Positions 37,595-59,366 of a DNA stretch of 64,000 nucleotides are shown here, piece by piece. Source of the DNA: Fodinisporobacter ferrooxydans. Its GTDB lineage: Bacteria; Bacillota; Bacilli; Tumebacillales; MYW30-H2. The position numbers and the translations under genes were made by a program. A model generated the notes under the pieces. That model ran no database searches, was not told the origin of the DNA, and saw only the letters and a program-made list of their open reading frames with translations. The stretch lies in assembly GCF_022818495.1 (NCBI RefSeq), contig NZ_CP089291.1, positions 2,095,001-2,159,000 of the forward strand, written 5' to 3'. How positions within the stretch are numbered: the stretch's first letter is position 1; every line of letters starts with the position of its first letter.

Positions 37595-37651
37595 TGTTGG
37601 AGGCTTGAAAAGAAAGAGAACTGCACTTAGTAATTGAAGAATGGGTATGTA

Positions 37652-37680
37652 AACACCATGGTTATTGCCATGGTGTTTTT
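37652..37680 (+). terminator. thiC terminator
   Basis: AACACCATGG pairs with CCATGGTGTT and is followed by TTT. It isolates thiC from the defence island. Confidence 0.85.
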
Positions 37681-37728: not shown

Positions 37729-37860
37729 AAAGCATAACTGGATAAAATTACATGTATGCTCACCAATTTAATCAAATTTATTGAATTCCCCGTGGGGAAT
37801 TGAAATGTTACGTAGTTAAATTTTGTTTTGGGTTTTTGGTGAGCAATTTGATTCTTCTTA
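37729..37860 (+). ncRNA. CreA/CreR-like RNA with degenerate CRISPR repeats
   Basis: TTGAATTCCCC-GT-GGGGAATTGAAAT (37781-37806) matches the 3' 26 nt of the array repeat except for the inverted central AC and the last base, so the Cas6 hairpin and the 5'-handle ATTGAAA(T/C) are kept. A weak second repeat (GAG.AA.TTGA-TTC, about 37837-37857) follows after a pseudo-spacer of about 30 nt. TGCTCACCAA at 37757 and TTGGTGAGCA at 37836 form a 10-bp inverted repeat around the element. A Cas6-processed guide for Cascade is the likely product (inference). It is not part of the main array, 10 kb away. Confidence 0.6.
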
Positions 37861-37870
37861 ATTTTAATAT

Positions 37871-37906
37871 TCAGTTACTTAGTTAAAATTTTGTTTAATA
37901 AATTTT
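37871..37906 (+). promoter_or_regulatory. Partial protospacer for the solo-repeat guide, before the cas operon
   Basis: TCA is followed by GTTACTTAGTTAAA, which matches the first 14 nt of the pseudo-spacer except position 6. Beyond position 14 matching is poor. Such partial matching is expected for guided repression without cleavage. It lies 79 bp before the small hydrophobic ORF and 260-300 bp before cas8. Confidence 0.55.
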
Positions 37907-37923
37907 GATTATTAGGAAAACTT

Positions 37924-37944
37924 ACTCCTAAGTTAAATAGGAGT
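37924..37944 (+). promoter_or_regulatory. Hairpin that covers the Shine-Dalgarno of the 46-residue ORF
   Basis: ACTCCTA pairs with TAGGAGT (7 bp, loop of 7). The right arm contains AGGAG, the ribosome binding site for the ATG at 37952. Folding would block initiation. Confidence 0.55.
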
Positions 37945-37951
37945 GATTCTC

Positions 37952-38092
37952 ATGAAAAATTTGCCCTTATTAGAAATTGGGATAATTATTGTAGCTATTG
38001 TAATTTCCCAAAGATTTTCTGTAGTTGATATTGAAATTCGGTATGGAGCCATTCAAATTTTAGTGAAATTATGGTCAAAAATTATCGGCTAA
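37952..38092 (+). CDS. 46-residue hydrophobic peptide, candidate toxin (CreT-like)
   Basis: The reading frame has AGGAG 8 nt before ATG and encodes one membrane helix (about 5-22, LLEIGIIIVAIVISQRF) followed by an amphipathic tail with KLWSKIIG at the end. Size and pattern resemble membrane-acting type I toxins. It lies between the solo CRISPR-like element and cas8, on the same strand as the cas operon. I know no homologue. It could alternatively be a leader peptide or an uncharacterised small Cas-associated membrane protein. Confidence 0.55.
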   Translation: MKNLPLLEIGIIIVAIVISQRFSVVDIEIRYGAIQILVKLWSKIIG

Positions 38093-38167
38093 CAAAAAGG
38101 TAAATGGAAAATATTGTGGAATACTTAACAGGAAAGGAAAATGATTGAAATGAAGGGAGGCTGCTCA

Positions 38168-39928
38168 TTGAAATTAGAACTTTCATTAACTGGAGACCCA
38201 TGGTATGACCGTGGGATTTCTCTATTAGTGCAATTGTTTGAGAATCTTGATGAGGAAATCATTCGGGAACAAACATATGATCAGACACAGTATCGTCTGG
38301 AATTGAACGGCGATCCCCAAAAGATTCAAAAAGCCGTATTTGAGGAGTTGCGAATACGAGCCAATGCCTTTGTCCAAATTCCTGTTATCCTGAAAGCGAT
38401 TGGAAAGCAAAAACATGATACGAGTGAATTTTCGGATCCCAAACAGACGTTTCGTGTCACGCAAGAAGATATTGATGCTGTCAAACAGCGCTCTACTGAT
38501 TATGCGGACAAACGGGATCCTGCAAAAAGCCGTTTCTATGAAAATTTGGCGAAAAATAATAAACCGGATAACGTACAAGCAGAATTGGCACGCCAATTTA
38601 TTGGTCTTAGAAAGGATTTAACAACACTTCAAAGTGGGCTGCAGGAATCTGTAGAACAGTTTTTTTCAAATCTTACAGAAACAAAAGGCTCGTCTTATTG
38701 CCAAATCTGCGGCAGGGCTGTCAAAAAACCAGTTAAAATGGTGCAATCTCGAAACCCGTTTTTCAACCAACACCACAACACAAAAATTAGAGGGTATGCG
38801 ACAAATGCGGTACCCGGAATGATGTGTCATATTTGCAACTTAGTTTGCATACTTGCAACGGTAACCGAAGCTATTCCATACTACATAGCTGATTCGACTG
38901 TAATTTTATTGCCTCAAATTGCAAAAACCGATACATATGAAATTGTGTTAAACGCGTTGGATGAAAACATTTATAAGAGCGATCAGGCGGATTTTTTGTC
39001 GAAAACGACAAATATCAGAACGAATCGCGTGATTCATTACGATGATCCTTATATAGCCCTTGTTACCATTTGTTATAAAATGCTTCGAACATGGAATACA
39101 ACGGAAAATTTGGATGCACTTGTTTTTGCGAACCAAGTTGATTTTGGTGCGATTCAAGGGTGGTGGGTGATACCGTATTCAAAAGGTCAAAATGTGAATT
39201 TTAAGCCGTTTCAATTTATCCCGACAACGGAGCGGCTATTTAATTTTTTTGTCAATCTAAAAGATACTTCCGGGAAAATATACTCGATGTTTGAGGATGT
39301 CATTCAAGCATCTACTGAAGATTGGACCAAGGAATTGGCAAGAGCAATGATCGAAGAAAATATCAATCGGATGACTCGAGCGATATTGGCATGGCATAGG
39401 GGTACAATTGAAGAAGAACAGGGATCAAAATTTATAAATCCAAGAATTCCGAAGACAATTTTGTTGTTTTTACCACAATTTTATAAGGAGGTCATGTCGA
39501 ACGTGGAGCAAAACCTGCTAACTCCGGAGCTTAGAGAAGATCTAAAAAAACTCGGATATCAACTTGGCGTTCATTTTTCAAATGATGTCTCATTCATGAC
39601 GAAGCTGGCGACAGTGCGGGGATTGCGTGAATTCCATTCCCTCATCAATCAAGGTCTTAATGTTATTTACAAACAAACCTACGCTCAATCGAAAGACAAG
39701 AAAGATCAGAAGGAAAAAAATGGATCAGGTCTATCAGAGGAGTCAAACACACTCGATCAATCCGAACAGATGGATGATCAAAAAGGGCTTTATTTGAAGC
39801 CGGAGCGGCTGGAACGAATTTTAAACGAAGTGGGAAATCAAAACCTTCTCCAAGCTGCCAACTATTTAGGATCTTTTGCTTCTTTATATGCGATTCAAAA
39901 ACTTCAACGGGATCATCAATCGAAATAA
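38168..39928 (+). CDS. cas8b: Type I-B Cascade large subunit Cas8 (Cst1-like, CXXC-CXXC)
   Basis: The 586-residue protein carries two Cys pairs, CQIC near residue 178 and CHIC near 219, that probably bind zinc, as in the Cst1 branch of Cas8. The C-terminal third, before a Lys/Glu-rich linker, is helical. It should recognise the PAM and hold the crRNA 5' handle. GGGAGG lies 7 nt before the TTG start; an ATG nine codons earlier lacks a suitable site. It is the first gene of cas8-cas7-cas5-cas3-cas6. Confidence 0.85.
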   Translation: MKLELSLTGDPWYDRGISLLVQLFENLDEEIIREQTYDQTQYRLELNGDPQKIQKAVFEELRIRANAFVQIPVILKAIGKQKHDTSEFSDPKQTFRVTQEDIDAVKQRSTDYADKRDPAKSRFYENLAKNNKPDNVQAELARQFIGLRKDLTTLQSGLQESVEQFFSNLTETKGSSYCQICGRAVKKPVKMVQSRNPFFNQHHNTKIRGYATNAVPGMMCHICNLVCILATVTEAIPYYIADSTVILLPQIAKTDTYEIVLNALDENIYKSDQADFLSKTTNIRTNRVIHYDDPYIALVTICYKMLRTWNTTENLDALVFANQVDFGAIQGWWVIPYSKGQNVNFKPFQFIPTTERLFNFFVNLKDTSGKIYSMFEDVIQASTEDWTKELARAMIEENINRMTRAILAWHRGTIEEEQGSKFINPRIPKTILLFLPQFYKEVMSNVEQNLLTPELREDLKKLGYQLGVHFSNDVSFMTKLATVRGLREFHSLINQGLNVIYKQTYAQSKDKKDQKEKNGSGLSEESNTLDQSEQMDDQKGLYLKPERLERILNEVGNQNLLQAANYLGSFASLYAIQKLQRDHQSK

Positions 39929-39942
39929 GGGGAGATAACAGA

Positions 39943-40854
39943 ATGAAAAAAGCGATAGGCATGAATTGGTTGGCTCGCGCTGACCTGAGCAATCTGAATT
40001 CCGGAGAAGGGATCGGAAATCTGACACAATTAAAGCTGTACCGGGGAAATCAATATCCTTATAATTCCGGACAAGCGGTGCGGCATGCATTATTTGAAAC
40101 GTTACAGCGCGAACATGGGGAAGTCATGAAATGTCTGCCCGAGTCGCCTTGTGGTCAAATTGAAACATGTTGGGCTTGTGATTTGCGCGGATACCTGATC
40201 GCAGAAAAATTGGACGAAAACGCAAAAGGGACTTCAGATAAGCGTTGGTCTCCATTAAAAGTGACACCCGCCTTAGGAACAAAACCGGTCGATTTGACGA
40301 CAGATTTGCTTTTGCAGTTTACTGCGAATCCGGCGGAGAATAGGATTGCCAATATCCAATTAACAGAAAATATCTATCGTATAGGAATGTGTATCGACAT
40401 TGCCAATATTGGCCGTCAGGAAAAGCCGGTATTTATTGCCAATGGAAGAAAAGAAAAATTTTCTCATTGGCAAGAGAGTGCGAATATTTCGGATGATCAA
40501 CGAAGACAACGAGTGCACGCTGTGCTAGATGCAGTATATCGGCTGTCCGGTTTTGCAAAACAAGCTCGCGGCGCAGTATCGTTGGCTCCGGAAGTCATGT
40601 TTCTCTCTGTTCAAGATCACTATCATCAACGCGGTCTGGATGTTCTGCTGTTGGATGATGAAGGAAATGCGGATATCTCTCGAGTCATTTCTTATATACA
40701 AGACAGACAATTTGACGGAGATCAAGTATTGTTTGCATATACGCCGGGCGTTATAACAAATGGGGAGGAAATGGCAGAAGCAGTGCGAACTACCGGCCTT
40801 CCTGTCTTGTCTGTAAGGGAATCGTTCGAAAAGGCAAAAGCTCTGGTGGAGTAG
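39943..40854 (+). CDS. cas7: Cascade backbone Cas7 (Cst2/DevR family)
   Basis: The 303-residue RAMP protein shows the DevR/Cst2 features: an N-terminal LARADLSNLNSGEG, QYPYNSGQAVRHALFETLQ, a small Cys-containing insertion (CWACDLRG near 73) and SGFAKQARGAVSLAPEVMFLS. Several copies coat the crRNA spacer. It lies 14 bp behind cas8 with GGGGAG before the ATG. The length is normal. Confidence 0.9.
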   Translation: MKKAIGMNWLARADLSNLNSGEGIGNLTQLKLYRGNQYPYNSGQAVRHALFETLQREHGEVMKCLPESPCGQIETCWACDLRGYLIAEKLDENAKGTSDKRWSPLKVTPALGTKPVDLTTDLLLQFTANPAENRIANIQLTENIYRIGMCIDIANIGRQEKPVFIANGRKEKFSHWQESANISDDQRRQRVHAVLDAVYRLSGFAKQARGAVSLAPEVMFLSVQDHYHQRGLDVLLLDDEGNADISRVISYIQDRQFDGDQVLFAYTPGVITNGEEMAEAVRTTGLPVLSVRESFEKAKALVE

Positions 40855-40862
40855 GTGATACT

Positions 40863-41564
40863 TTGGACGTATTGACCTTTCGCGCAAAAGTTCCATATGA
40901 GTGTGGGTTTCGAAAAGAAACGGCGGTGAATACACACCCTACATATCCACTGCCGCCTTTTACAGCATGGACAGGTTTGATTGCGAATGCGTTAGGATTC
41001 GCCCAGGATGTGCCGCTGCCTTGGGAGATCCAGCTTGCCCAAGGGATTTTGCAGCAAGGATCGATGCATCAGTCTCTTACGCTGATTCATAAACGTGCAC
41101 ATCCCAGTGAAACCAGGTATCTGTATCAATCGACACTTGTATCAAAAGAGCGGATTTATTATCCTGCCTACGAGGTTATGGTATATACACCGGATACACA
41201 AGGATTTACTGATATTGTGGAATGTATTAGCGATCCGAAGCGGCCGCTGTATCTTGGAGCATCGGATGATCTCGTTGAAATTTACGATATCAAAATAGAC
41301 TCGGCAATACCGGTAAAAAGCAGCACATTTCATTCGATTGTTCCATTTGAATTGGGGAAAATGCTAACGGAAGCACGAGTGGTTCAACTGCCAGTACGCT
41401 ACGAGTATCAACCGGATGTGCTCCACCGTGAATTGTTTTATTTTATGCCGCAAGTGGAAACCGTCGGCAATAAAATCCCTGATCAACCCACTACAATTGA
41501 ACTAGACAGACCCATAGAAGGATATCAAGTGAAAGATCGGGTGGTGCAATTTGTTTCTTGCTAA
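40863..41564 (+). CDS. cas5: Cascade subunit Cas5 (Cas5t type)
   Basis: This 233-residue RAMP protein has VLTFRAKVPYECGFRKE at the N-terminus and TYPLPPFTAWTGLIANALG, the Cas5 motif with a PPxT(A/S)xxGxLxNxLG pattern. It binds the crRNA 5' handle next to Cas8. The start is TTG. Its end overlaps the start of cas3 by 14 bp, suggesting coupling. Confidence 0.87.
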   Translation: MDVLTFRAKVPYECGFRKETAVNTHPTYPLPPFTAWTGLIANALGFAQDVPLPWEIQLAQGILQQGSMHQSLTLIHKRAHPSETRYLYQSTLVSKERIYYPAYEVMVYTPDTQGFTDIVECISDPKRPLYLGASDDLVEIYDIKIDSAIPVKSSTFHSIVPFELGKMLTEARVVQLPVRYEYQPDVLHRELFYFMPQVETVGNKIPDQPTTIELDRPIEGYQVKDRVVQFVSC

Positions 41565-44229
41565 GCACAACCAAACGTATGAAGGACATATTTTAGACTG
41601 CCTTACTATAGCAACGCATATTTTAACGAAGTATCAAGTAACAATGGAGAAGATTTTAAAACGATTACCCGGGGAATTCAATCTGGAATTCCCCGTCTTT
41701 CGCAAATTATGTATCATGGGTGTTTTCTTGCACGATTCGGGAAAGTTAACGGAAGAATGGCAGAGAGCCATTCATTCATCGGATCAAAGTGGAAAAAAAA
41801 AGTTGCCCGCTCATACACCGTACTCGTTTGCCGTCATCCAGTCCTTATTTCCGGATATGGATATATCTCCTTTGCAATTGATGAAGCTTGCAAGTGTCTC
41901 ACATCATGGATTGCTTACCAATGATACATATAGCGGCGAATCGAATCTTGCAACGAAAGGCCCAATTCCGTTTCATGTAGATGGATTCAATGAAATCAAG
42001 CAAAAGTTGTCTGTCGGATATCCAGAGCTCAAGGATATTCCTGATCTTTTCGGGACGGAAATGTTGTTTGATTCGACGGCTAAAGGAAATTTGCTTCCTA
42101 ATGTGATTTCCAATCGCATGCGGCATATAAAGCAAGTGTATGGACGAACTAGTCCGAAGACAAAAAAGCTGTATATAAAATCATTGTTTGCCTTATTTTC
42201 TTGGGTGATCAGTACTGCAGACAAATGGGCCAGTCGTATCGCAAATATTGAACTTGCAGGCAATGTAGAGAAAGAATATGACGCAGTGGTTGATATGGAG
42301 AAAGTGGAGCGGCATTTGAAAGTATGGTCGAATAGAGAATGGCCTGACATAACGATTGAAGGTGAAGATTTACGCCCATTCCAAGAAGATGTGGAAGGTG
42401 CCGGTCCGTTTGTCATTGCCGAAGCTCCGTGCGGAGAAGGCAAAACGCTTGCCGCTTTACGATGGGGACTTTCCCAAATCCGGCAAGGCCACGCCAATCG
42501 ATTGATTATCTGTATGCCGACGCAAACGACTTCCAATGCGTTATATCAACAATTGATCACAGCGTATCGGATTCCAAAGGATCATGTTGGTATCTATCAT
42601 GGAGATGCAGAATTTTTCTATGAACATATAAAAGAGGAATTGGCATCGAAACATGATGTAGATAACAAGATGGAGGACCCTCATGAACAGGGACGCCCCG
42701 ATCCTTTATTTGATTCGCTGGTATTTCAAAAATCCATTGTCGTGACAACAGCCGATCATCTGGCGTATAGTTTTTTGCATTGTTATCGATATGCAGACTA
42801 TACGTTTGGCGCCGTTCAGCAAGCGGCGATTATTTTTGATGAATTGCATGTATTCGATCAGACTTGTATGGGAAATATTTTGGACATGTGTGAAGTCATG
42901 ACAAAGCTTAAGATTTCACATTTGTTGATGACTGCTACTTTGCCTCACTTTATCGAGGCGGCGTTTTATGAGAAGATCCCGGAAACCTATCGAAAAGTGA
43001 GGTCTGCCAAATTTACAGATTCTGTGACGGATCATTATCGATATAAATTGAATCGGTTGTCTTGTGCAATTTTTGCAGAGGATGACGTTCATCCCATATT
43101 AATAGAGATACTCCAAAATTCAAGAGGTTTGCGCAGAATTGTTTATGTGAATTTGGTACAAGATTCGGTCAATATGTATGGGAAGATCCAGCATTTGTTT
43201 CCGGACGAAAATGTGGTATTGTATCATTCGGAATTTACACGGATTCACCGTTTGAGGAAAGAACAATCGATTCAACGATTGTTTAAACAGTCGAATGGAA
43301 CTTGGGTAGAAGGAGACCAATCATTTGATGCATCTCGAGGTACCATTTTGATCACAACCCAAATTGCCGAGATTAGCCTAGATATATCGGCTGACCTGAT
43401 GATTAGCGCTCTTGCACCTTGTGATACTTTGATCCAAAGGGCGGGTCGCCTTCATCGGAAAGGTAAGTCTGGTTTAACGGATGTTTGTGATTGTCCTCAA
43501 TGTGAAAAGCTTCATCAAAAAGGAATCGAAAATTTGGAGTTTACACTGTATGTAGCAGATTTGCCCGAAGGTGATTCAAATGCATTATTTCCTTATGTAA
43601 GTGCAGAAATTCTTAAGAGAGAGTCCGAGCATGTATTGCTACGGACAAAACGGACGATGGAGAATGAACAGAGAATGTCAGCCGCCCGTGAAAGTGAATG
43701 GATCAATCGTGTATATAAAGGTGAGGCTCTTTTGTCGCATTCCCAGATGAAAAAATGCATAGAGGAAGATTGTTTATTTGGAGCAACCGTACAGCAGCGA
43801 TTTGGGGACGAAGATAGCACACAATCCGATGGAGGGAGCGGATTTGCTTTTCGCGATATTCAGGTGAAAAAGCGTACGACCCTGCCATATGATGCAATCA
43901 AAGATTCTGTTGATGATTCGCTCCAGTTTTTCAAGAACCTTGCGTTTTCAGATTTTAAGGAAATCGTAGAGCGCGATGATTGGAATATAACAGAAGAAAA
44001 TACAAATGAACAAGATATAAATATTTTATTAGAAAAGTACCGAAAATACTTACACAAGCATAAACTGCAACTGAATTTCTCCAGATATCGCCAGATTGAA
44101 CGAAACTATTCTATTGTAAAATTTCATGGGCGATATAATTCTTTTTTGATTACAGATGCACCCTATCGATTTTCTGATGGAATTCATTTAAGAAATTCAG
44201 ATCAAATACAGACTACAAAAGAGAGTTGA
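41551..44229 (+). CDS. cas3: Cas3 HD nuclease-helicase
   Basis: The product has 892 residues. The N-terminal HD nuclease has GVFLHDSGKLTEEW near 57 and SHHGLL near 118. The SF2 helicase follows: APCGEGKTLAAL (Walker A, near 290), TTADHLAYSF, FDELHVFD (motif II), LLMTATLP, and ITTQIAEISLDISADL with LIQRAGRLHRKG (motif VI). Cascade recruits it to shred target DNA. HD and helicase motifs look intact, so the I-B system appears competent for DNA interference. Confidence 0.95.
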   Translation: MFLAKHNQTYEGHILDCLTIATHILTKYQVTMEKILKRLPGEFNLEFPVFRKLCIMGVFLHDSGKLTEEWQRAIHSSDQSGKKKLPAHTPYSFAVIQSLFPDMDISPLQLMKLASVSHHGLLTNDTYSGESNLATKGPIPFHVDGFNEIKQKLSVGYPELKDIPDLFGTEMLFDSTAKGNLLPNVISNRMRHIKQVYGRTSPKTKKLYIKSLFALFSWVISTADKWASRIANIELAGNVEKEYDAVVDMEKVERHLKVWSNREWPDITIEGEDLRPFQEDVEGAGPFVIAEAPCGEGKTLAALRWGLSQIRQGHANRLIICMPTQTTSNALYQQLITAYRIPKDHVGIYHGDAEFFYEHIKEELASKHDVDNKMEDPHEQGRPDPLFDSLVFQKSIVVTTADHLAYSFLHCYRYADYTFGAVQQAAIIFDELHVFDQTCMGNILDMCEVMTKLKISHLLMTATLPHFIEAAFYEKIPETYRKVRSAKFTDSVTDHYRYKLNRLSCAIFAEDDVHPILIEILQNSRGLRRIVYVNLVQDSVNMYGKIQHLFPDENVVLYHSEFTRIHRLRKEQSIQRLFKQSNGTWVEGDQSFDASRGTILITTQIAEISLDISADLMISALAPCDTLIQRAGRLHRKGKSGLTDVCDCPQCEKLHQKGIENLEFTLYVADLPEGDSNALFPYVSAEILKRESEHVLLRTKRTMENEQRMSAARESEWINRVYKGEALLSHSQMKKCIEEDCLFGATVQQRFGDEDSTQSDGGSGFAFRDIQVKKRTTLPYDAIKDSVDDSLQFFKNLAFSDFKEIVERDDWNITEENTNEQDINILLEKYRKYLHKHKLQLNFSRYRQIERNYSIVKFHGRYNSFLITDAPYRFSDGIHLRNSDQIQTTKES

Positions 44230-44235
44230 AATATT

Positions 44236-44997
44236 TTGTTGCAAGAACTTGAGTTGAATTTTTCCGTATTGCATGATCATAGGCGAAATGGAAACATAAA
44301 TGAGGCAATTCATGGCTGGTTATTTCATCGTTTAAAGGTGACAAGTCCATCTCTAGCAGATCAAATTCATAACATGCGGATCAAACCGTTTGCCATTGAT
44401 GCCATTTCCAAAAAAGGAACTGTTTTGACGAGTGGAAAACGGATATCCGCTTCGATTTGTATTTTCTCTCCTCAATATTCCCACTCGATTTCTGACTCTT
44501 TAACACATGCGTTGGGTAAGGATTATGAGATCGGGAGAGTAGGGGTGAAATTTGATCAGATGTCTGTAAAACGCAAACAAACGTATGAACAATTAATTGA
44601 AGAGTCGTTTTCCCGCGACTATGAACAAGTTCAAGTAACGTTTGTTTCACCGACCAGTTTTCGACGTGAAGGCGTACAGATTTTATATCCTTCACCTGAA
44701 CTGGTATTGCAATCATTGCACAATCGTTGGAAAGAATTTTGTCCCGTAAAGACGACGAACATGGATACAAAATGGGAAGAACGATTTGTAGTAAGTCGCT
44801 ATCAATTGCAAACCAAACTAGTAGTATTTGATAAATACCCGATTGTTGGTTGTGTTGGAAATATCCAATATACACGAAGTAAGCATGCAAATTATTACCA
44901 AGATAAGTTGGCGCATGCATTGTTTCAATTTGGTACGTATTCTGGTGTAGGATATAAAACAACGATGGGCTTGGGAAGAATGCATGTTGCATTTTAA
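44236..44997 (+). CDS. cas6: Cas6 repeat endoribonuclease, type I-B operon copy
   Basis: The 253-residue RAMP protein has an EAIHGWLF motif near residue 27 and the C-terminal Gly-rich loop GVGYKTTMGLGRMHV typical of Cas6. It would cut the precursor at the base of the GAATTCCCC/GGGGAATT hairpin, leaving the ATTGAAAC handle. The start is TTG, 6 bp behind cas3. A second, complete Cas6 and a remnant occur nearby. Confidence 0.9.
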   Translation: MLQELELNFSVLHDHRRNGNINEAIHGWLFHRLKVTSPSLADQIHNMRIKPFAIDAISKKGTVLTSGKRISASICIFSPQYSHSISDSLTHALGKDYEIGRVGVKFDQMSVKRKQTYEQLIEESFSRDYEQVQVTFVSPTSFRREGVQILYPSPELVLQSLHNRWKEFCPVKTTNMDTKWEERFVVSRYQLQTKLVVFDKYPIVGCVGNIQYTRSKHANYYQDKLAHALFQFGTYSGVGYKTTMGLGRMHVAF

Positions 44998-44999
44998 AT

Positions 45000-45126
45000 T
45001 GGCAAAAGAAGAAAAACAAGACGAGTCCAATGCAAAAGGGTTTATGCAAACATTATTGCGATTTGCTTCCTATGTGGGTATCGGTTATAAATCTACTATG
45101 GCTTAGGGCAAATTGAATTAATTGGT
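45000..45126 (+). pseudogene. cas6: C-terminal remnant of another Cas6, frameshifted
   Basis: Codons for FMQTLLRFASYVGIGYKSTM end in GCT TAG. Restoring one G gives GGC TTA GGG CAA ATT GAA TTA, that is GLGQIEL, the normal Cas6 end. About 40 C-terminal residues remain directly behind the intact cas6. The fragment resembles the end of the III-A cas6 (NYMGIGYKSTMGLGHVKIV) more than the adjacent I-B copy (GVGYKTTMGLGRMHV). Confidence 0.75.
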
Positions 45127-45175
45127 CAAAACAATAATGAATCATTCAATCAGAAAGGTGGTTGATGGAGTGATT

Positions 45176-45496
45176 ATGCATATACAAGAGCAATTGGTGA
45201 AATTAATACAAGAAATAAACAACGTAACCTCCGCGAACAAGATCTATTTGTTTGGTTCATATGCGTATGGTGAACCAAACGAAAACAGTGATGTTGACCT
45301 TTGCATTGTAATCAATAATACAGATACTGGAAAAAGAGAACTTGTAAGATCCATTCGGTCTCGAATTGCCGAGGTTGCAACGATTCCAGTTGATGTTTTG
45401 GTTTATGACGAATATGAGTTTCTCGAACGGGCATACTTAGAATCGACAATGGAACATATGATCGCCCATGAGGGAGTCTGTGTGTATGAACAATAA
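45176..45496 (+). CDS. MNT-type nucleotidyltransferase
   Basis: The 106-residue product is a minimal nucleotidyltransferase with IYLFGSYAYGEPNENSDVDLCIV, the GS-x9-DxD catalytic pattern, near residues 35-50. In MNT-HEPN modules this protein neutralises the HEPN RNase by nucleotidylation. The HEPN partner gene here is truncated. The ATG has GGAG 5 nt upstream; earlier in-frame starts overlap the cas6 remnant. It is an insertion inside the I-B cas operon. Confidence 0.8.
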   Translation: MHIQEQLVKLIQEINNVTSANKIYLFGSYAYGEPNENSDVDLCIVINNTDTGKRELVRSIRSRIAEVATIPVDVLVYDEYEFLERAYLESTMEHMIAHEGVCVYEQ

Positions 45497-45620
45497 AGAT
45501 ATAGCGCAAGTTCATTCCCCCTTTCATATGGACATAAACGAAAATGATATAAAGAAAGTGATTGAAAGTACGGAACGAATCAAAAATTTTCTTCGGAGTA
45601 TTATAGAATCAAATGTTTAG
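45486..45620 (+). pseudogene. Truncated HEPN-domain partner of the MNT gene
   Basis: The ATG overlaps the MNT stop by 11 bp, as usual in such modules, but only 44 codons follow. Residues from HSPFHMDINENDIKKVIESTERIKNFL match the C-terminal helix of HEPN toxins. The N-terminal helices and the RxxxxH catalytic motif are missing, so no RNase activity is expected. Confidence 0.65.
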
Positions 45621-45622
45621 AG

Positions 45623-45652
45623 CCACCTTTAATATTAGGTGGTTTATTTGTT
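45623..45652 (+). terminator. Terminator before cas4-cas1
   Basis: CCACCT pairs with AGGTGG and is followed by TTTATTTGTTTG. It may end the effector transcript, so cas4-cas1-cas2 would need its own promoter in the 105 bp that follow. Confidence 0.6.
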
Positions 45653-45757
45653 TGCATTTGGAAATCAGAGAGAATTTTTAATCCATATAATCATGTCTAT
45701 CGAATTAGAAATATGGCAATAGTAGTACTAGATTTTAAAAAAGGTGGAGAATAAATC

Positions 45758-47452
45758 ATGTCGGAAAATCTATTGCCTATTTCCCAAGTTGCTGAAATTT
45801 TGTACTGTCCGCGCAATTTTTACTATCGAATGGCTGAAGGGGTCGACGACAGCAATGAACATACGTTGCAAGGCAAATGGGACGATGAGAAGCGGGAAGA
45901 ACGGTTATCAGTTAAACGGGAAAGCGGAATGCAAACCCGTCACATTCATGTCAGCTCAGAACAGTTAGGTATCGTAGGCATTTTGGATGTACTGGAAACA
46001 GGAAAAGAAACATGCATTGTAGAGTTTAAAAAGGGCGAGTATCGGTTGAATCAGAATGACGATGTGCAATTGTGTGCACAAGCTATGGCTTATGAAGACA
46101 TGACCGCAACCATAATGGATTTTGGTTATGTGTACTATCATGCATCGCATCGAAGGCGTAAAGTCTTTTTCACAGAAGATTTACGGGAATTGGTTTTGCA
46201 AACAATTGAAAGGGCTCGAGAAATACTTGGAGAACATAGGGTTCCGGAACCAATCAATGATGCTAGGTGTGGCGGATGTGCATTACAAGCGCGCTGTATG
46301 CCAGGAGAAGTAGAGTATCTGCGTGAAATCGATGGGAAAAACAGCGAAAACAGTTTGGCCAACAAGCAGCGTCTTGTACGCCCGACACCTAGTTTCCGGT
46401 TGGGGAGAGTGTTATATATAGATGAAGAATTCGCGTATGTCAAAAAAGAGGGAAGGCACCTGAAGATTACAAAAAACAAAGAGGTTTTGCGAGAGGTACC
46501 TATCGACAGCGTCGATGAAGTTGTTAGTTTATCGAATGTGCAATGGACGACGCAAGCACAGTGCTTATTGATGACAGAAGGCATCCCATTAACATTTTTG
46601 CATACGAACGGCCGATATGTGGGGACTGTAATCGGCTCTTTTTCAAAAAATAGCTTGCAAAGAATTCGGCAGTTTGAGATCCATCAGTCGCCGGAACGCT
46701 GGAAGATTGCAGCTTCATTTTCCAAAGGAAAATTGCAAAATATGCGTGTAATGATGCTTCGAAACGCTAAAAACATACATGAATGGAACGAAAGGAATGA
46801 ACAAAGTACGCAAGATCCAAACGATGATCTGTCAGATATTCCTCAATATGAAGCATGCATGAAACAGATTGAAAACGCTATAAAAAAGCTCAACTCAACA
46901 TTGGATCGGGATGAGATTCTTGGATGGGAAGGGATTGGCACAAAAGCATATTTCACATTATTTCGGAATTGGATTCGTCCTCCTTTTGTGTTTTCCGGCC
47001 GAATTCGAAGACCACCTACAGATCCTGTCAATGCTCTGTTGAGCTTTGGTTATTCGCTGCTAGCGAAATCGATTGAGTCATTGGTCTATGCAGTTGGATT
47101 AGATCCTTATATTGGATTTTTGCATGAGTCCCAATATGGAAGACCTGCGCTCGCCTTAGATTTAATGGAAGAGTTTCGACCTGTTATCGTTGATTCCATC
47201 GTGTTGCGGGCAATCAATCAGAGAATTCTCGCCGCTGATGATTTTGAACAGCGGGAGAACAGTATTTTATTAAAAGATTCAGCCAGAAAGACGTTTTATA
47301 AGTTGTTTGATCAAAGACTTTCTCAGGAGATCACGCATCCCGTTTTTCATTACCATGTAACGTATCGAAGAATGATGGAATTGCAGGTTCGCGTTCTTGC
47401 AAAAACGTTAACAGGTGAGATTCCAAATTATATCCCGTTAAAAGTGAAATGA
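45758..47452 (+). CDS. cas4-cas1: Cas4-Cas1 fusion
   Basis: The product has 564 residues. The Cas4 part (about 1-195) has YCPRNFYYR (Cys17), GIVGILDVLE and CIVEFKKGEY (RecB-type nuclease), and the Cys cluster RCGGCALQARCMPG that completes an Fe-S site. The Cas1 integrase part (about 205-564) has GFLHESQYGRPALALDLMEEFRPVIVD with the catalytic His and acidic residues. A fused protein couples PAM trimming of prespacers with integration. AAGGTGG lies before the ATG, and cas2 follows after 9 bp. Confidence 0.95.
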   Translation: MSENLLPISQVAEILYCPRNFYYRMAEGVDDSNEHTLQGKWDDEKREERLSVKRESGMQTRHIHVSSEQLGIVGILDVLETGKETCIVEFKKGEYRLNQNDDVQLCAQAMAYEDMTATIMDFGYVYYHASHRRRKVFFTEDLRELVLQTIERAREILGEHRVPEPINDARCGGCALQARCMPGEVEYLREIDGKNSENSLANKQRLVRPTPSFRLGRVLYIDEEFAYVKKEGRHLKITKNKEVLREVPIDSVDEVVSLSNVQWTTQAQCLLMTEGIPLTFLHTNGRYVGTVIGSFSKNSLQRIRQFEIHQSPERWKIAASFSKGKLQNMRVMMLRNAKNIHEWNERNEQSTQDPNDDLSDIPQYEACMKQIENAIKKLNSTLDRDEILGWEGIGTKAYFTLFRNWIRPPFVFSGRIRRPPTDPVNALLSFGYSLLAKSIESLVYAVGLDPYIGFLHESQYGRPALALDLMEEFRPVIVDSIVLRAINQRILAADDFEQRENSILLKDSARKTFYKLFDQRLSQEITHPVFHYHVTYRRMMELQVRVLAKTLTGEIPNYIPLKVK

Positions 47453-47461
47453 GGTGCAAAT

Positions 47462-47758
47462 ATGGATAAACATCTTACAACCCATTATGTGATTGTGTAT
47501 GACATTGCAGATGACAGACGAAGAAACCATGTTGTAAAAGCTCTGAAAGATTATGCGTATCGCGTACAATACAGTGTTTTTGAAGCCGAGCTAAAGCCCG
47601 ATTCACTTTTGAAGCTGCGTCGTCGCATCTCAAAATTGATTCATCTAAAAGAAGATAGCGTGATTTATTATTCAAGGTGTGGACGTTGTCGGGGGGAGGA
47701 AATTAGAGAAGGCAAGACCTACTCCGTATTAGATGATGAAGATTGGTTTTACGTTTAA
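47462..47758 (+). CDS. cas2: Cas2
   Basis: The 98-residue product has the ferredoxin-like first strand YVIVYDIADDRRRNHVVKALKDYAYRVQYSVFEAEL, the usual Cas2 signature with the conserved Asp, and ends EDWFYV. It pairs with Cas1 to form the integrase scaffold. GAGGTG precedes the ATG. The leader and array begin 225 bp later. Confidence 0.94.
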   Translation: MDKHLTTHYVIVYDIADDRRRNHVVKALKDYAYRVQYSVFEAELKPDSLLKLRRRISKLIHLKEDSVIYYSRCGRCRGEEIREGKTYSVLDDEDWFYV

Positions 47759-47983: not shown

Positions 47984-50900
47984 CTCAGAGGAAATTGAAT
48001 TCCCCACGGGGAATTGAAACTTCACTAGCCACAGATTTGTATGACAAATGATATCAAATCTCAGAGGAAATTGAATTCCCCACGGGGAATTGAAACTTTG
48101 GAAACATTGGAGCCATTTTTACCATTGTGCTAAACTCAGAGGAAATTGAATTCCCCACGGGGAATTGAAACAGCGGGTAGGGTAGCAGCAAATGCAGTTC
48201 GTGCTATGACTCAGAGGAAATTGAATTCCCCACGGGGAATTGAAACTCGGCAAATATATATGCTGATAAGTCAATTGGTCCAGTTCTAACTCAGAGGAAA
48301 TTGAATTCCCCACGGGGAATTGAAACGATCAAACAGCTCCCATGTACGTGAGTGGCGGTGCACCCTCAGAGGAAATTGAATTCCCCACGGGGAATTGAAA
48401 CCACCAAACTATGATTCACCATCCAACGTAACCTCCCACCACCTCAGAGGAAATTGAATTCCCCACGGGGAATTGAAACTATAAAACCCGTTAAAGCAAC
48501 AATAGCAACTTGAACACTCAGAGGAAATTGAATTCCCCACGGGGAATTGAAACTCGGTAACGCAAAATCGCTGTCTTTCAAGTTGTTTCGCTCAGAGGAA
48601 ATTGAATTCCCCACGGGGAATTGAAACACTTGGTTCATGGAGTCTGTCATGCGTTGATAGCCAACTCAGAGGAAATTGAATTCCCCACGGGGAATTGAAA
48701 CAAATTAAAGGAGGAATGGAAATGAATAGTAAACATGATATACTCAGAGGAAATTGAATTCCCCACGGGGAATTGAAACTGATTCGTGGTGTCAATGGTG
48801 TTACGACCGCAAACACACTCAGAGGAAATTGAATTCCCCACGGGGAATTGAAACCCACAATTGTGTACAATTGCTCCGTTATGTACTCCCCTACTCAGAG
48901 GAAATTGAATTCCCCACGGGGAATTGAAACTACATTTCTTCGAGTAAGTTGTATATACCAGAAAGTGCCTCAGAGGAAATTGAATTCCCCACGGGGAATT
49001 GAAACGTAAAATATTCAAAAAGTTTATTGGAGGATTCATGAACTCAGAGGAAATTGAATTCCCCACGGGGAATTGAAACTAGGAGGGATTTATATGCGTT
49101 GTTGCGATTGTGGTAAAACTCAGAGGAAATTGAATTCCCCACGGGGAATTGAAACAGTACGGGAATAGCGGAGGGCGTGGCGGGAAGCAATAGCAGCCTC
49201 AGAGGAAATTGAATTCCCCACGGGGAATTGAAACTCATCAAGCGGTTCACCGTAATATGCCAGTGATTCTCTCAGAGGAAATTGAATTCCCCACGGGGAA
49301 TTGAAACACAGTTGAGAATGTAAAGGTGCCGAATCCCGTTGCACTGACTCAGAGGAAATTGAATTCCCCACGGGGAATTGAAACTTTGAGAATTTAAAAG
49401 GGTTCAAAGTTATAAAAATAACCTCAGAGGAAATTGAATTCCCCACGGGGAATTGAAACGATCCTTGACTTTTGTGTATAGTACAGGCGTAACTTACTCA
49501 GAGGAAATTGAATTCCCCACGGGGAATTGAAACTAAGAAACGTCTACGCTTTGTTCAGGTGAAAAGGTTCCACCTCAGAGGAAATTGAATTCCCCACGGG
49601 GAATTGAAACTGCGCTATATCCGGCTCCGTTGGTTCCGGCAAAACTTCGCTTCTCAGAGGAAATTGAATTCCCCACGGGGAATTGAAACGTAAGCCACCG
49701 ACTAAGTCAAGCGCCTTTTTCTGCGGTGTTCCTCAGAGGAAATTGAATTCCCCACGGGGAATTGAAACGCAGCAGGCGGATTCGCAGGCGGTGCGATGAA
49801 ACGAGCTGGTCTCAGAGGAAATTGAATTCCCCACGGGGAATTGAAACACTGCGGAGATTGAACAAGATGCAAAAGGTTTTGCTCCTTACTCAGAGGAAAT
49901 TGAATTCCCCACGGGGAATTGAAACGCGATAAATACCGTCTCTTTTACTGTCGCAGCGAATACAGCCCTCAGAGGAAATTGAATTCCCCACGGGGAATTG
50001 AAACTATGCGAGAAGCACTACGGTGAATGGAGGAAGCGGAACTCAGAGGAAATTGAATTCCCCACGGGGAATTGAAACACGATTGTTACTGTTTTTCTTC
50101 GGTTGATTCGTTTCGCCGCTCAGAGGAAATTGAATTCCCCACGGGGAATTGAAACAGCAACAAATTCCCGTTCTTGTCTGTGATAGACATGAACCCTCAG
50201 AGGAAATTGAATTCCCCACGGGGAATTGAAACATTTTCCGCTGTCGGGCAAACGAAGAATCTCGGTCGCTGCCTCAGAGGAAATTGAATTCCCCACGGGG
50301 AATTGAAACTGGCTCATACGCTTACAGCAAGCGACTGGAGAGGGTCTCAGAGGAAATTGAATTCCCCACGGGGAATTGAAACTCGGGTGCAATTTTTTTT
50401 AATTTGACTCAATCGTGAAGGATCCTCAGAGGAAATTGAATTCCCCACGGGGAATTGAAACTTTACGCTACCTCTGAATTCAGTTTTAAACTGTGTTGGC
50501 ACTCAGAGGAAATTGAATTCCCCACGGGGAATTGAAACGATGCAGACAAGACTGCAAAGAGCGGTGATGCTACTTTTTTTCTCAGAGGAAATTGAATTCC
50601 CCACGGGGAATTGAAACATAATGTCTACCGTTTGAACAAGTGCTTCATGCAAAAGGGCGGCTCAGAGGAAATTGAATTCCCCACGGGGAATTGAAACGAC
50701 GCTGCCGCAAGAGTATTTCTTTGGGTCGTTTGGCAGCTCAGAGGAAATTGAATTCCCCACGGGGAATTGAAACACCGTCCATGTTGATCCTTTGAATTTC
50801 GCTGGTTTTGGTGGATCTCAGAGGAAATTGAATTCCCCACGGGGAATTGAAACCTACTCCTACAGACTGGACAGGCGGGGCAAGCGCTTATCAACAAACT

Positions 50901-53459
50901 CAGAGGAAATTGAATTCCCCACGGGGAATTGAAACAATATTACCTATCCTTACAAAGTCAACGAATTGAGGACTCAGAGGAAATTGAATTCCCCACGGGG
51001 AATTGAAACCTGTTCACATTTAAAAACTGTGTGCCGCTGCTGTTCTCTCAGAGGAAATTGAATTCCCCACGGGGAATTGAAACGTCGGTACATTGCGCGA
51101 TGACATCGCGAGCATGTCGGACTCAGAGGAAATTGAATTCCCCACGGGGAATTGAAACCTCAACTTTGTGGTAGTACTTGACAAACCCTCTCAATTATCT
51201 CAGAGGAAATTGAATTCCCCACGGGGAATTGAAACTCCTCTGGATCTTTCGGTGTCTCTACTTCCACGGTCGCGTTTGCTACTCAGAGGAAATTGAATTC
51301 CCCACGGGGAATTGAAACATGTGAAACGTACATGTCCCCAAATTATGCGACAAATATCTCAGAGGAAATTGAATTCCCCACGGGGAATTGAAACATCAAA
51401 TAAATAACTTTCAATACGAGAGTTATGATAACCCTCAGAGGAAATTGAATTCCCCACGGGGAATTGAAACCTTGAATTATGGGATACATTCGCGGGAGTT
51501 GATGATCTACCTCAGAGGAAATTGAATTCCCCACGGGGAATTGAAACTCCAATGTCAAGTTCGACACGTCAGAATTAACTCCAATAACTCAGAGGAAATT
51601 GAATTCCCCACGGGGAATTGAAACACTTTTAAAAGTATTCCGAAAAGAATTTCGATTCAAAAATCCTCAGAGGAAATTGAATTCCCCACGGGGAATTGAA
51701 ACATTTAATGTTTTGTCGAAGTATTCCCACGCCATTACCCACTCAGAGGAAATTGAATTCCCCACGGGGAATTGAAACACTTGTAATAACTTTCCAACGT
51801 ATCCCGAATAGATCCTCTCAGCTCAGAGGAAATTGAATTCCCCACGGGGAATTGAAACGCTGTCCATTCCGAACAAAGCAATTCCGTTTGCCGTTTTCTT
51901 CTCAGAGGAAATTGAATTCCCCACGGGGAATTGAAACATGTCTTCCTTTCGAGCTAAAAATAACATTGAAGCACAACTCAGAGGAAATTGAATTCCCCAC
52001 GGGGAATTGAAACCAAAAATCCGAACATTGGTTAGAAATAGGAAATATATGGACTCAGAGGAAATTGAATTCCCCACGGGGAATTGAAACGCTATGGAAT
52101 CAATCTCATTTGTTCTTCCTGCATTTTTCCATCTCAGAGGAAATTGAATTCCCCACGGGGAATTGAAACACAGCGTGGGGTCGTTTGTGGAGCATGGGGT
52201 GGCATAGGCTCAGAGGAAATTGAATTCCCCACGGGGAATTGAAACAGCGTACATGAAACATTTAGAAATCGAAAAAAAGAACTCAGAGGAAATTGAATTC
52301 CCCACGGGGAATTGAAACGTATCACAGTTTGATGAGGGTTTTTGTAACTTATCAATTGCCTCAGAGGAAATTGAATTCCCCACGGGGAATTGAAACTTTC
52401 AAAAATCGCAAGAATCGGTCGAGAGCCGAGAATCTCAGAGGAAATTGAATTCCCCACGGGGAATTGAAACCTGTGACTAAAAAAGAACTAATCCTCATTA
52501 GCTCCAAAGGACTCAGAGGAAATTGAATTCCCCACGGGGAATTGAAACTTCCTAGTGACTTCTGCCAGGAATTTCGCATTGCCATCGCTTACCTCAGAGG
52601 AAATTGAATTCCCCACGGGGAATTGAAACATATCAGATGTACTATCCATTGCTTCCAATATATCAGCATGTCTCAGAGGAAATTGAATTCCCCACGGGGA
52701 ATTGAAACTGAAAATATGCAACACGCAGCTTTAAAAGTTGTTGAACTCAGAGGAAATTGAATTCCCCACGGGGAATTGAAACTTAGCTAGTTCTTGAATC
52801 GCTGCCTCGACCGTTTCATCTCAGAGGAAATTGAATTCCCCACGGGGAATTGAAACGCTGTCAATCGCGCTTTTCGTGATCGGCCGACCTTCCATCACTC
52901 AGAGGAAATTGAATTCCCCACGGGGAATTGAAACAGCAATAACAAAGTATACGTATTTCCGGTTGTAGTCCTCAGAGGAAATTGAATTCCCCACGGGGAA
53001 TTGAAACACAAGATACTTGTACATTTCTTTGTCCTCGTTGTTTCCCTCAGAGGAAATTGAATTCCCCACGGGGAATTGAAACTCAACACGTTCGATTGGA
53101 TTCGTTGGATTTCCTGATTGCTCAGAGGAAATTGAATTCCCCACGGGGAATTGAAACCGCGATACAGCAGAAAATGAATGGCCTGATCCAAACTTACACT
53201 CAGAGGAAATTGAATTCCCCACGGGGAATTGAAACGCAGGAACGACAATCACAAACGGAAACGCTACTTTGTCGCTCAGAGGAGATTGAATTCCCCACGG
53301 GGAATTGAAACCATTGTAAAATTACGTGAAACAAACGGCGCAGATGAAGCTGCTCAGAGGAAATTGAATTCCCCACGGGGAATTGAAACTTTCCGATTAG
53401 GCTACGTTCGCACAAGCGGGAACAAGATTGACTCAGAGGAAATTGAATTCCCCACGGGG
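47984..53459 (+). CRISPR. CRISPR array, 72 repeats and 71 spacers
   Basis: The repeat is 37 nt. It starts CTCAGAGGAAA, continues with the palindromic TTGAATTCCCCACGGGGAA and ends TTGAAAC. I counted 72 repeats by their starts, with spacers of 36-46 nt (mean about 40). All look identical except repeat 71 from the decayed end region near 53275 (one A to G, at AGGAGATTG) and the final copy (53432-53459), which keeps only 28 nt. The hairpin and ATTGAAAC handle suit Cas6 processing. Both the I-B and the III-A-like effectors probably use it, because no second array is visible. Confidence 0.98.
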
Positions 53460-53642
53460 TGTGAATAAGCACCTGTTTTGTATTGTAAATAGCATTACAA
53501 TCCTATACAATATTTACTAGATTATGTTATTTTTGTGTTTATTATGATTCGGGGGGAAGATAAGTGGCGTGGGTGATTTTTTGGAATAATGTTTCATTTT
53601 GTTCCAGTTTTTAGTAATATCGGTGGGTGTGTAATGCTTTAG
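53460..53642. other. AT-rich region behind the array
   Basis: No gene is visible. GTAAATA and TATTTAC form an inverted repeat near 53487-53519 that might end array transcription. Confidence 0.4.
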
Positions 53643-54080
53643 CAAGGAATACAATTTTGGAAAAGTGAAAGAGAATACAAGAGAAAAATTCAATCACTAC
53701 AAACTTTGCGAATTAATAGTGAGCAGCATGTTGTCAATTTATCTAGTAACCCAATCGAGATAAGCACAGATAATTGCTTGGAAGGAAAAACGATTATTTC
53801 TGTTCCCTTTCATGTTAATAATGGAATAGAAATTGTCAGCGTACAGGACATCATACATGGGGCTGACCATTTGTTAGGATTGAAATTATCAACGAGATCA
53901 AAAAAGTATAGTGACCATTGCTTTGCCAGGTATGTCTGCTTTGGCTCAAGTTGTTATTATCAAGTTGCATGCTATGTCTGGAATATTTCCTTTGGTAACG
54001 CTCCCTTTACGCGATAAAAGTAAGGGCGGAAAATTTGTATGGCAACGGCCAGTTGATCTTCATCACGTTAGAAACTAATC
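53643..54080 (+). pseudogene. Decayed gene of unknown function
   Basis: An open frame without a credible start runs from just behind a stop to 54017 and reads like real protein (EGKTIISVPFHVNNGIEIVSVQ, then DIIHGADHLLGLKL). Near 53990 the protein-like character moves to another frame (LPLRDKSKGGKFVWQRPVDL) that stops near 54078. This suggests a frameshifted remnant. I do not recognise the family. It separates the array from the III-A-like operon. Confidence 0.35.
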
Positions 54081-54167
54081 ACGAACTTCCCGATGGTCCG
54101 ATTTAGATAAACCAACTTAATTCAAAACTAGAGTAATAATAGATTTTATCATAATTGGGGGATTTTT

Positions 54168-54929
54168 TTGCTGTGCTTATGGTCGATTACACTAGCATGT
54201 ATAACTGAAGGGAAAGTTAGAGGGAATGAAGGAGAGGCGGTTCATGGATGGTTATTTAATAACTTACGTAATTTAAGTCCAGAGATTGCATCTCGTTGGC
54301 ATGAAGTGCAAGTGAAACCATTCCGTGTTTCTTTTAAAAATTTTTCAGCGGGCAAGAATTATGTTCAAGGAGATACAGCAACTTTAATGATTGGTGCTGC
54401 TACATTTGAAGCAGTTCATTTTATTGGTGAATTAATTCAAAAGATAGATTGTGTGAAATTAGGTACAGCCATTTTTTTAATGAAAGAAACTAGTATTTTA
54501 CAGCAAATTACATATGATGATTTAATTCAAAGTTCTTTTACATCAGTTTCTACTAAAGAAAGAAAAGTTCAATTCCTTTCACCTACTACATTCAGAAGTG
54601 AAGGGGTGCATATATTGTTTCCAACGCCTGAACTGTTTTTTTCTGGATTGGGTCGAAAGTTCAATGCATTATATCAGAAACCATTTCCTCCATTTTCAAT
54701 TAATTGGGACCGGGAGATTCTCATAAATCGGTATCGATTACAAACAACAAATGTATCGTTCGTAAAATATAAAATCGTTAGTTTTACAGGTGATATGATA
54801 TTTTCTCCCACTGGTAACAATATTTCTGATTATACGGTTTCAATTTTTAAATTGCTTTGTGATTTTGCAAATTATATGGGGATTGGCTATAAGTCTACAA
54901 TGGGGCTCGGACATGTGAAAATTGTCTAG
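54168..54929 (+). CDS. cas6: Cas6, type III-A operon copy
   Basis: The 253-residue Cas6 has GEAVHGWLFNNL near residue 22, VQFLSPTTFRSEGVHILFPTPEL in the centre and the Gly-rich C-terminus MGIGYKSTMGLGHVKIV. The order of motifs equals that of the I-B copy, but sequence identity seems only moderate, so it is an old paralogue. GGGGGA lies 5 nt before the TTG start. Both Cas6 proteins probably face the same repeat. Confidence 0.88.
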   Translation: MLCLWSITLACITEGKVRGNEGEAVHGWLFNNLRNLSPEIASRWHEVQVKPFRVSFKNFSAGKNYVQGDTATLMIGAATFEAVHFIGELIQKIDCVKLGTAIFLMKETSILQQITYDDLIQSSFTSVSTKERKVQFLSPTTFRSEGVHILFPTPELFFSGLGRKFNALYQKPFPPFSINWDREILINRYRLQTTNVSFVKYKIVSFTGDMIFSPTGNNISDYTVSIFKLLCDFANYMGIGYKSTMGLGHVKIV

Positions 54930-55045
54930 GATTAATTCATTTTATAACTGATCTGATTGGTGATTCATAATATATGAAAGTATTAATCATATATAAAAGA
55001 TCATGGCCGAAACGTTGCAAATAAATTTGTGAAAGGAATTAATGC

Positions 55046-57292: not shown

Positions 57293-57680
57293 TTATGAGT
57301 ATTTGAAAAATGGGTATTATACCGATTCGTCAAACAAAAGATTACGGCGTGGAATTATTATTGAAGATGCAAAGCGTGTAGCAGAAGATTTAGTAAGTGG
57401 CAAAATTAAAATGACATCAACTACGTTGCGACGATTTTACTCAAAGCTTTTAAGTGCGTATGAGAAATATAAATCAAACAATGATTTTGAAGGGATCGTA
57501 AATCAAATTGAAGCATTAATTCCAGATGCTGAGATTGCGGTGAAAAGAGAAGTAGCACCTTATCAATTTAAAAACTTTATTCGTGAAAACGTAAATTTAG
57601 CCTCGCGAAATCCTGATAATTTAAAAGGATTTGTAAGACATTATCAAAGCATCATTTGTTTTTTTTCTGAAAAAAAATGA
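57267..57680 (+). CDS. csm2: Csm2, type III-A small subunit
   Basis: The 137-residue helical protein matches Csm2: an N-terminal disordered stretch, KMTSTTLRRFYSKLLSAYEKYKSNNDF, and EIAVKREVAPYQFKNFIRENV. Csm2 copies line the inner filament opposite Csm3. The ATG lies within the end of cas10 (26-bp overlap), with AAGGAGGAG about 12 nt upstream; a TTG nine bases earlier is possible. Confidence 0.85.
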   Translation: MADQRYPNNYEYLKNGYYTDSSNKRLRRGIIIEDAKRVAEDLVSGKIKMTSTTLRRFYSKLLSAYEKYKSNNDFEGIVNQIEALIPDAEIAVKREVAPYQFKNFIRENVNLASRNPDNLKGFVRHYQSIICFFSEKK

Positions 57681-57706
57681 TTCATTAATTAAATGGAGGG
57701 ATTTTC

Positions 57707-58369
57707 GTGAAATTAAAACAGTTTACGAAGATTACAGGAATTATACATTGTGAAACGGGACTGAAAATTGGCGGAACTAAGGATAGTATTGACATTGGCG
57801 GTGTAGATGCACCAATTATTCGTCATCCTATTACACGTGTTCCATATATCCCCGGATCCTCATTGAAAGGGAAAATGCGTTCTTTACTAGAATCTATCTA
57901 TTCTTCAAATACGAGTATTTACCCTTGTGGTTGCGGTACGTGCAAGGTATGCATAAATTTTGGTTCTTTAAAATCTACGTCCCCAACTCGTGTACTTGTA
58001 CGTGACGCCCATATGGCAGAGAAAAGTTTAGCAGTTTTAAAAAATGCTAATGAGGAATCTGGAATGAATTTTGTAGAGGTTAAGACAGAAAACTTTATTA
58101 ATCGCTCTGTAGGAAAAGCAGAAAAACCTCGGGTATTTGAACGTGTACCTGCTGAAACAGAATTTCATTTTGAAATCAGTATACGAATCTTTGAAAACGA
58201 TTTGGAGACAGATGTGGTGAATTTTGTACTTGAAGGATTGAAACTCGTCGAACATGATTATCTAGGTGGATCTGGTGGACGTGGATACGGAAAAGTAAAG
58301 TTTAAGAATGTTGTTGTAGAAACTGTGCCATTACAAAATTATAAAGAAGATGTGGTTGATCCTAAATGA
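57707..58369 (+). CDS. csm3: Csm3, backbone RNase of the type III-A complex
   Basis: The 220-residue RAMP protein has LKIGGTKDSIDIGGVDAPIIRHP (catalytic Asp in GGVDAP near residue 34), YIPGSSLKGKMRSLLE, and the Gly-rich GGSGGRGYGKVKF end. CGCGTCKVC near 75-83 may bind zinc. The catalytic Asp is present, so periodic cleavage of target RNA is expected. GGAGGG lies before the GTG start. It overlaps csm4 by four bases. Confidence 0.92.
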   Translation: MKLKQFTKITGIIHCETGLKIGGTKDSIDIGGVDAPIIRHPITRVPYIPGSSLKGKMRSLLESIYSSNTSIYPCGCGTCKVCINFGSLKSTSPTRVLVRDAHMAEKSLAVLKNANEESGMNFVEVKTENFINRSVGKAEKPRVFERVPAETEFHFEISIRIFENDLETDVVNFVLEGLKLVEHDYLGGSGGRGYGKVKFKNVVVETVPLQNYKEDVVDPK

Positions 58370-59304: not shown

Positions 59305-59366
59305 AATTTCTTAGTTGTCTTTATGTACAAGGAAACAGTTCTATTCAAATGGATAGGAGAATCAGT

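Follow-up and report, generated by a model that had tools for sequence, protein, structure and literature searches.

A likely CreR-type guide in front of the type I-B cas operon of Fodinisporobacter ferrooxydans

Introduction

CreR, which Liu and coworkers reportedly described in 2023 (pmid 37659410), is said to be a crRNA-like RNA that represses its cas operon. In a review (PMC12737573), it appears as a crRNA-like RNA directing the effector to its own cas promoter. The same review deals with CrePA, in which Cascade represses a protein toxin, the CreP toxins being typically provided with a KilA-N domain (PMC12737573). For CreTA, the type VIII toxin-antitoxin system of H. hispanica and H. hubeiense (PMC8501985, PMC9458426), the required base pairs have been determined experimentally as 1-5 and 7-11 plus a PAM; repression needs the cascade genes and not cas1-4 (cas3 included), and in H. 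hubeiense the cas operon is immediately preceded by creTA (PMC8501985). Finally, Racr is a solitary-repeat RNA anti-CRISPR of phages (PMC10651486).

Here, we analyze a window of 64,000 nucleotides from Fodinisporobacter ferrooxydans, a bacterium without close sequenced relatives, and compare one of its loci with these systems. The locus resembles CreR, as described, in its ectopic degenerate repeat, in a short guide that partly matches the cognate cas leader, in its type I effector and in that cleavage would not be expected; it differs in the orphan 46-aa ORF between the target and cas8, in a second repeat that is weak or missing, and in a cas4-cas1 fusion and a neighboring type III operon. 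It shares with CreTA a seed of positions 1-5 and 7-11 in which position 6 is ignored, a target in a putative promoter region (with a flank that is here only PAM-compatible) and, as in H. hubeiense, a site upstream of a cas operon. Unlike CreTA, however, an RNA toxin whose mini-ORF has consecutive rare codons was not seen, the first gene behind the target encodes a 46-aa peptide and the next is cas8, and the order of guide and target gene is reversed. The likeness to CrePA would be that of a protein gene under guide-directed repression by Cascade, but the peptide lacks KilA-N and known relatives. With Racr, the locus has a solitary CRISPR repeat in common, but here the repeat stands at a host cas locus and its guide matches the cas leader.

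Results and Discussion

The Guide Unit and Its Target

The genes run in the order thiC-like gene, guide unit, 46-aa ORF, cas8-cas2 operon, array, second cas6 and type III operon with Cas10 (table 1). The 4.86-Mb genome contains 72 copies of the repeat core, of which 71 belong to the array; the remaining one, psi-R1, is the sole ectopic repeat genome-wide and lies directly upstream of the cas operon. Of the array repeat ATTGAATTCCCCACGGGGAATTGAAAC, psi-R1 (ATTGAATTCCCCGTGGGGAATTGAAAT) represents the 3' part and is identical at 21 of the final 24 nt; the loop AC has become GT, its reverse complement, as expected from loop inversion, and the final C has become T. As in CreR, this is a degenerate repeat outside the array that has retained the Cas6 hairpin and handle, whereas the 5' third is missing, a decay pattern that has also been reported for psi-R1 in PMC8501985. 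Its predicted RNA fold is like that of the array repeat (-9.2 vs -10.1 kcal/mol). Another repeat-like stretch (45096-45119, p 0.001) was considered as a second ectopic repeat and rejected because it is readable as the C-terminus (GQIEL) of a cas6 remnant.

Table 1. Coordinates of the elements at the locus (window positions)
Feature	Position	Strand	Remarks
Intrinsic terminator	37651..37678	+	Closes upstream thiC-like gene; 12-pair stem, then T-rich tail
5' arm TGCTCACCAA of 10-nt perfect inverted repeat	37757..37766	+	Closing stem in folded RNA; may be chance
Ectopic CRISPR repeat psi-R1	37780..37806	+	With Cas6 hairpin and 8-nt 5' handle ATTGAAAT
Pseudo-spacer psi-S	37807..37829	+	Seed matches cas leader
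Possible psi-R2 (degenerate second repeat, GAGCAATTTGATTC), alternatively 3' hairpin arm TTGGTGAGCA	37836..37863	+	Weak
Putative PAM TCA	37871..37873	+	5' of target; compatible with type I-B PAMs elsewhere
Target (protospacer-like) site	37874..37896	+	cas operon leader; position 6 mismatch, 1-nt shift after ~11-14
Hairpin ACTCCTA-N7-TAGGAGT	37924..37944	+	Pairs with Shine-Dalgarno sequence of 46-aa ORF
Orphan 46-aa hydrophobic ORF MKNLPLLEIGIIIVAIVIS...	37952..38092	+	First in operon; possible membrane toxin or leader peptide
cas8, diverged	38141..39928	+	Real start probably TTG 38168
Remaining operon	39943..47758	+	cas7 (Cst2/DevR), cas5, cas3, cas6, lone nucleotidyltransferase, cas4-cas1 fusion, cas2
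CRISPR array	47984..53468	+	72 repeats, 71 spacers; final repeat degenerate

Directly 3' of psi-R1 stands the pseudo-spacer psi-S (GTTACGTAGTTAAATTTTGTTTTGG), whose start is separated by 67 nt from that of the target site (GTTACTTAGTTAAAATTTTGTTTAA); the latter begins 78 nt upstream of the 46-aa ORF, behind which the type I-B cas operon follows. According to the original prediction, the first 14 nt after the solitary repeat (GTTACGTAGTTAAA) recur at 37874 with position 6 as the sole mismatch, at a site that is preceded by TCA and located just before the small ORF and the cas operon. Rereading of the sequence bears this out: positions 1-5 and 7-14 are identical, position 6 is changed, and the 5' flank reads TTCA. 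The additional statement that the matching ends after position 14 was mistaken, since the homology goes on beyond a 1-nt indel that puts it out of register (GTTACGTAGTT-AAATTTTGTTT and GTTACTTAGTTAAAATTTTGTTT, 22 of 23 positions). Upstream of the repeat/spacer boundary there is no identity (GAAAT vs ATTCA). To judge from the letters, the pair looks like a copied stretch whose tail has been pushed out of register. A guide with a partial (seed) match to its own cas operon leader is the arrangement of CreR, and complementarity at positions 1-5 and 7-11 is the seed defined for CreTA.

A match of this length is rare by chance, with a probability of about 1e-4 or less. When 37831-38140 was shuffled 20,000 times with dinucleotides preserved and both strands were scanned, the match at 1-5 and 7-14 appeared with a frequency of 5e-5 and the minimal one at 1-5 and 7-11 with a frequency of 3e-4; none of 20,000 shuffles of the 121-nt leader contained the 14-nt match. 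The array provides an internal control: over 570 bp, its 71 spacers reach at most 10 anchored positions, as against 14 for psi-S.

A terminator closes the thiC-like gene, and the guide unit therefore probably needs a promoter of its own; the promoter search at the locus found no consensus promoter for either the guide or the operon, and an Rfam search gave no match. The candidate psi-R2 resembles the repeat with p about 0.06. A 10-nt inverted repeat (37757-37766 and 37836-37845) surrounds psi-R1 and psi-S; it was considered as a transposon end and kept as a possible RNA stem, which could close the guide RNA or terminate its transcript.

Compatibility of the PAM

TCA had been described beforehand as a PAM of some type I-B systems, and this holds for two of them: in C. 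autoethanogenum it has been confirmed in vivo (PMC10328091), and in C. difficile, where CCT was validated, it is frequent at protospacers (PMC6079278). The 71 array spacers do not permit a PAM to be derived for the present system because none of them has a usable protospacer. Comparison of the array with phages and plasmids by distant blastn, one of the checks initially proposed, gave only matches at chance level; no protospacers were found in the bacterium's own genome, exact spacer scans of viral contigs gave no matches, and an order-level protospacer search gave nothing usable. Among 399 genomes of the class, a single match was found, that of spacer 29 (window 50156-50195) to a chromosomal rsfS-like gene (34 nt, 88%), in which the first 12 nt have diverged and which consequently yields no usable PAM. 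This spacer resembles a housekeeping gene of another genome rather than an obvious mobile element.

Comparable Units in Distant Relatives

Two relatives have a comparable layout in front of their cas operons, one clear and the other weak. Both are distant, with Cas8 proteins only 25-28% identical and guide sequences that are unrelated. In Lihuaxuella thermophila (L015, 4940-5202), a CreR-like two-repeat unit on the minus strand is located between the array and the cas6-cas8 operon; it reads ...CCATTCTGGAATTGAAAT, then ATAGACAATTAATTTTTGATC, then a degenerate psi-R2. Its psi-R1 ends in GGAATTGAAAT, and the guide ATAGACAATTAATTTTT matches the target ATAGAAAATTAATTTTT, which is flanked by CCT, at 16 of 17 positions (p 5e-5), with position 6 again the only mismatch. 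This target overlaps the AGGAGTG ribosome-binding site of the cas6-cas8 operon, which lies on the strand opposite to the unit. In Paenactinomyces guangxiensis (L016) the layout is the same, and ATAAGGAAAATAAAGTAATGTT faces ATAAGAAGAATAAGTAATGTT with mismatches at positions 6 and 8 and a 1-nt shift; the match is significant only when gapped (p 0.002 with the gap, 0.13-0.29 without), and the flank GCG is outside the type I-B PAMs met here.

Between these two relatives, positions 4, 5, 9, 10, 11, and 13 differ in guide and target alike, at position 6 only the guide differs and at position 8 only the target; to read this as change within one lineage is to assume a common descent of the two guides, whose sequences are highly diverged. 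The relatives add evidence in that the pairing persists through changes of sequence, strand and spacing, with position 6 left free. The guide unit is not universal, since nothing comparable is present in the available stretches of one MAG (L014) and of eight more relatives obtained by the phylum search. In one genome (G407), there is just a degenerate terminal array repeat at the corresponding place.

Proposed Mechanism and Rival Explanations

We consider it likely, from the sequence, that the locus is a CreR-type autoregulatory guide that represses its own cas operon. The ectopic repeat would be transcribed and then cut by Cas6, which would give a short crRNA-like RNA composed of the handle AUUGAAAU and the guide GUUACGUAGUUAAA; such a Cas6-dependent small RNA would start with AUUGAAAUGUUACG, and the guide RNA, with a 5'-OH, would begin AUUGAAAUGUUACGUAG. 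Cascade loaded with this guide would bind its own cas leader at 37874 through the TCA PAM and the seed at 1-5 and 7-11/14, the mismatch at position 6 being presumably neutral for binding. As the register is lost after positions 11-14, the R-loop would be too short to recruit Cas3 and the operon would be repressed rather than cut. The repressed unit would comprise the 46-aa ORF and the genes from cas8 onward, and the precedents of CreTA and CreR likewise suggest that there is no cleavage. A shortage of Cascade, its engagement by crRNAs from the array or its inhibition by an anti-CRISPR would derepress the operon, and cas expression would rise. Guided repression without cleavage, as originally proposed, is still the reading that best accounts for a match that starts exactly at the boundary, skips position 6, covers the seed and then loses its register. 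In this bacterium, the cas genes are probably under the thermostat-like control of the CRISPR complex that they encode, a device that has precedents among other CRISPR systems.

The 46-aa ORF raises the question of a different primary target. In an addiction module similar to CreTA or CrePA, the guide would serve mainly to repress a 46-aa toxin that is freed when Cascade is lost or inhibited, and cas would be repressed as a side effect of sharing the same leader. Behind the target, the ORF comes first, and its strong Shine-Dalgarno sequence can be masked by a 7-bp hairpin. Several mRNAs of type I toxins are masked in this way. With its single hydrophobic stretch, cationic end and net charge of +2, the peptide might be a membrane toxin, in a kind of CreR/CreTA hybrid; moreover, the H. 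hubeiense creTA likewise adjoins the cas operon (PMC8501985). However, no relatives of the ORF were found in the 399 genomes of the class, in phages or plasmids, or in Pfam, NCBIfam and PHROGs, and no toxin family was matched; neither does it have the KilA-N domain typical of CreP toxins (PMC12737573). In the haloarchaeal modules creT precedes creA, the reverse of the order here, and both L. thermophila and P. guangxiensis have the guide without such a small ORF. The addiction module is, in our judgment, rather improbable. CreR fits better than CreTA because the gene behind the target belongs to the cas operon and the relatives lack the extra ORF. The same low degree of confidence applies to a hybrid in which one guide lets Cascade repress a leader that the cas operon shares with an orphan peptide active on membranes; if it were true, a cell whose Cascade is lost or inhibited would both express cas more strongly and free a toxin.

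The remaining alternatives dispense with a guide altogether. AT-rich tandem copies around promoter regions are common operators, and homology that reaches past the seed with an indel would suit a 23-nt direct repeat serving as an operator pair for a transcription factor, the adjoining CRISPR repeat being incidental. This is very unlikely, since one copy starts exactly at the repeat/spacer boundary, the mismatch falls on position 6, and L. thermophila follows the same rule with an unrelated sequence, on the other strand and at another spacing. That a chance duplication came to lie next to the dead remnant of a one-repeat array, with no present function, might be suspected from the AT-rich region and the weak psi-R2; it is scarcely credible at a probability of about 1e-4 for this locus and 5e-5 for that of L. 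thermophila, considering also that such units recur in front of cas operons and that the Cas6 hairpin has been retained. That the solitary repeat serves to titrate Cas proteins in the manner of a Racr decoy, as solitary repeats of phages do (PMC10651486), has a next to negligible probability, because the cas operon at which the repeat stands is the host's own and the sequence next to the repeat matches the leader of this operon by the rules of a guide.

Both CreR and CreTA having already been published, the CreR-type reading would make this locus another case of its kind, a clean one, predictable from sequence, in which a CRISPR effector controls the genes that encode it. What novelty remains is the possible coupling of guide control to a peptide, and the 46-aa ORF makes the question of CreR versus toxin directly testable. 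The evidence from the relatives supports a simple rule for genome-wide searches: a handle-like 8-mer, followed by a sequence matching a cas leader at positions 1-5 and 7-11, with a PAM.

The Surrounding CRISPR-Cas Genes

The assignment to type I-B derives from a Cas7 of the Cst2/DevR kind, which matches TIGR02585 with 93 bits (above the cut-off), together with Cas5, Cas8, Cas3, and Cas6. Cas8 matched no curated family and the score of Cas5 was below the cut-offs of the I-B models. A plain search of the genome contigs gave no relatives of Cas8; an alignment-based search found them in other Bacillota, and they start at the residue aligned with TTG 38168.

Within the operon, a lone minimal nucleotidyltransferase (NTP_transf_2; window 45122-45496) has no clear HEPN partner, only a 50-aa ORF being next to it. 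Behind the array, a Csm-like type III operon (window 53706-60854) includes Cas10, the second cas6 and, as a possible CARF-HEPN effector, a protein of 501 aa; since this operon directly follows the type I-B array, both systems may share one array. After the intact cas6 of the type I-B operon, there is an additional remnant of a cas6 C-terminus (YVGIGYKSTM..GQIEL; window 44980-45121), which points to a duplication of cas6 or to gene conversion.
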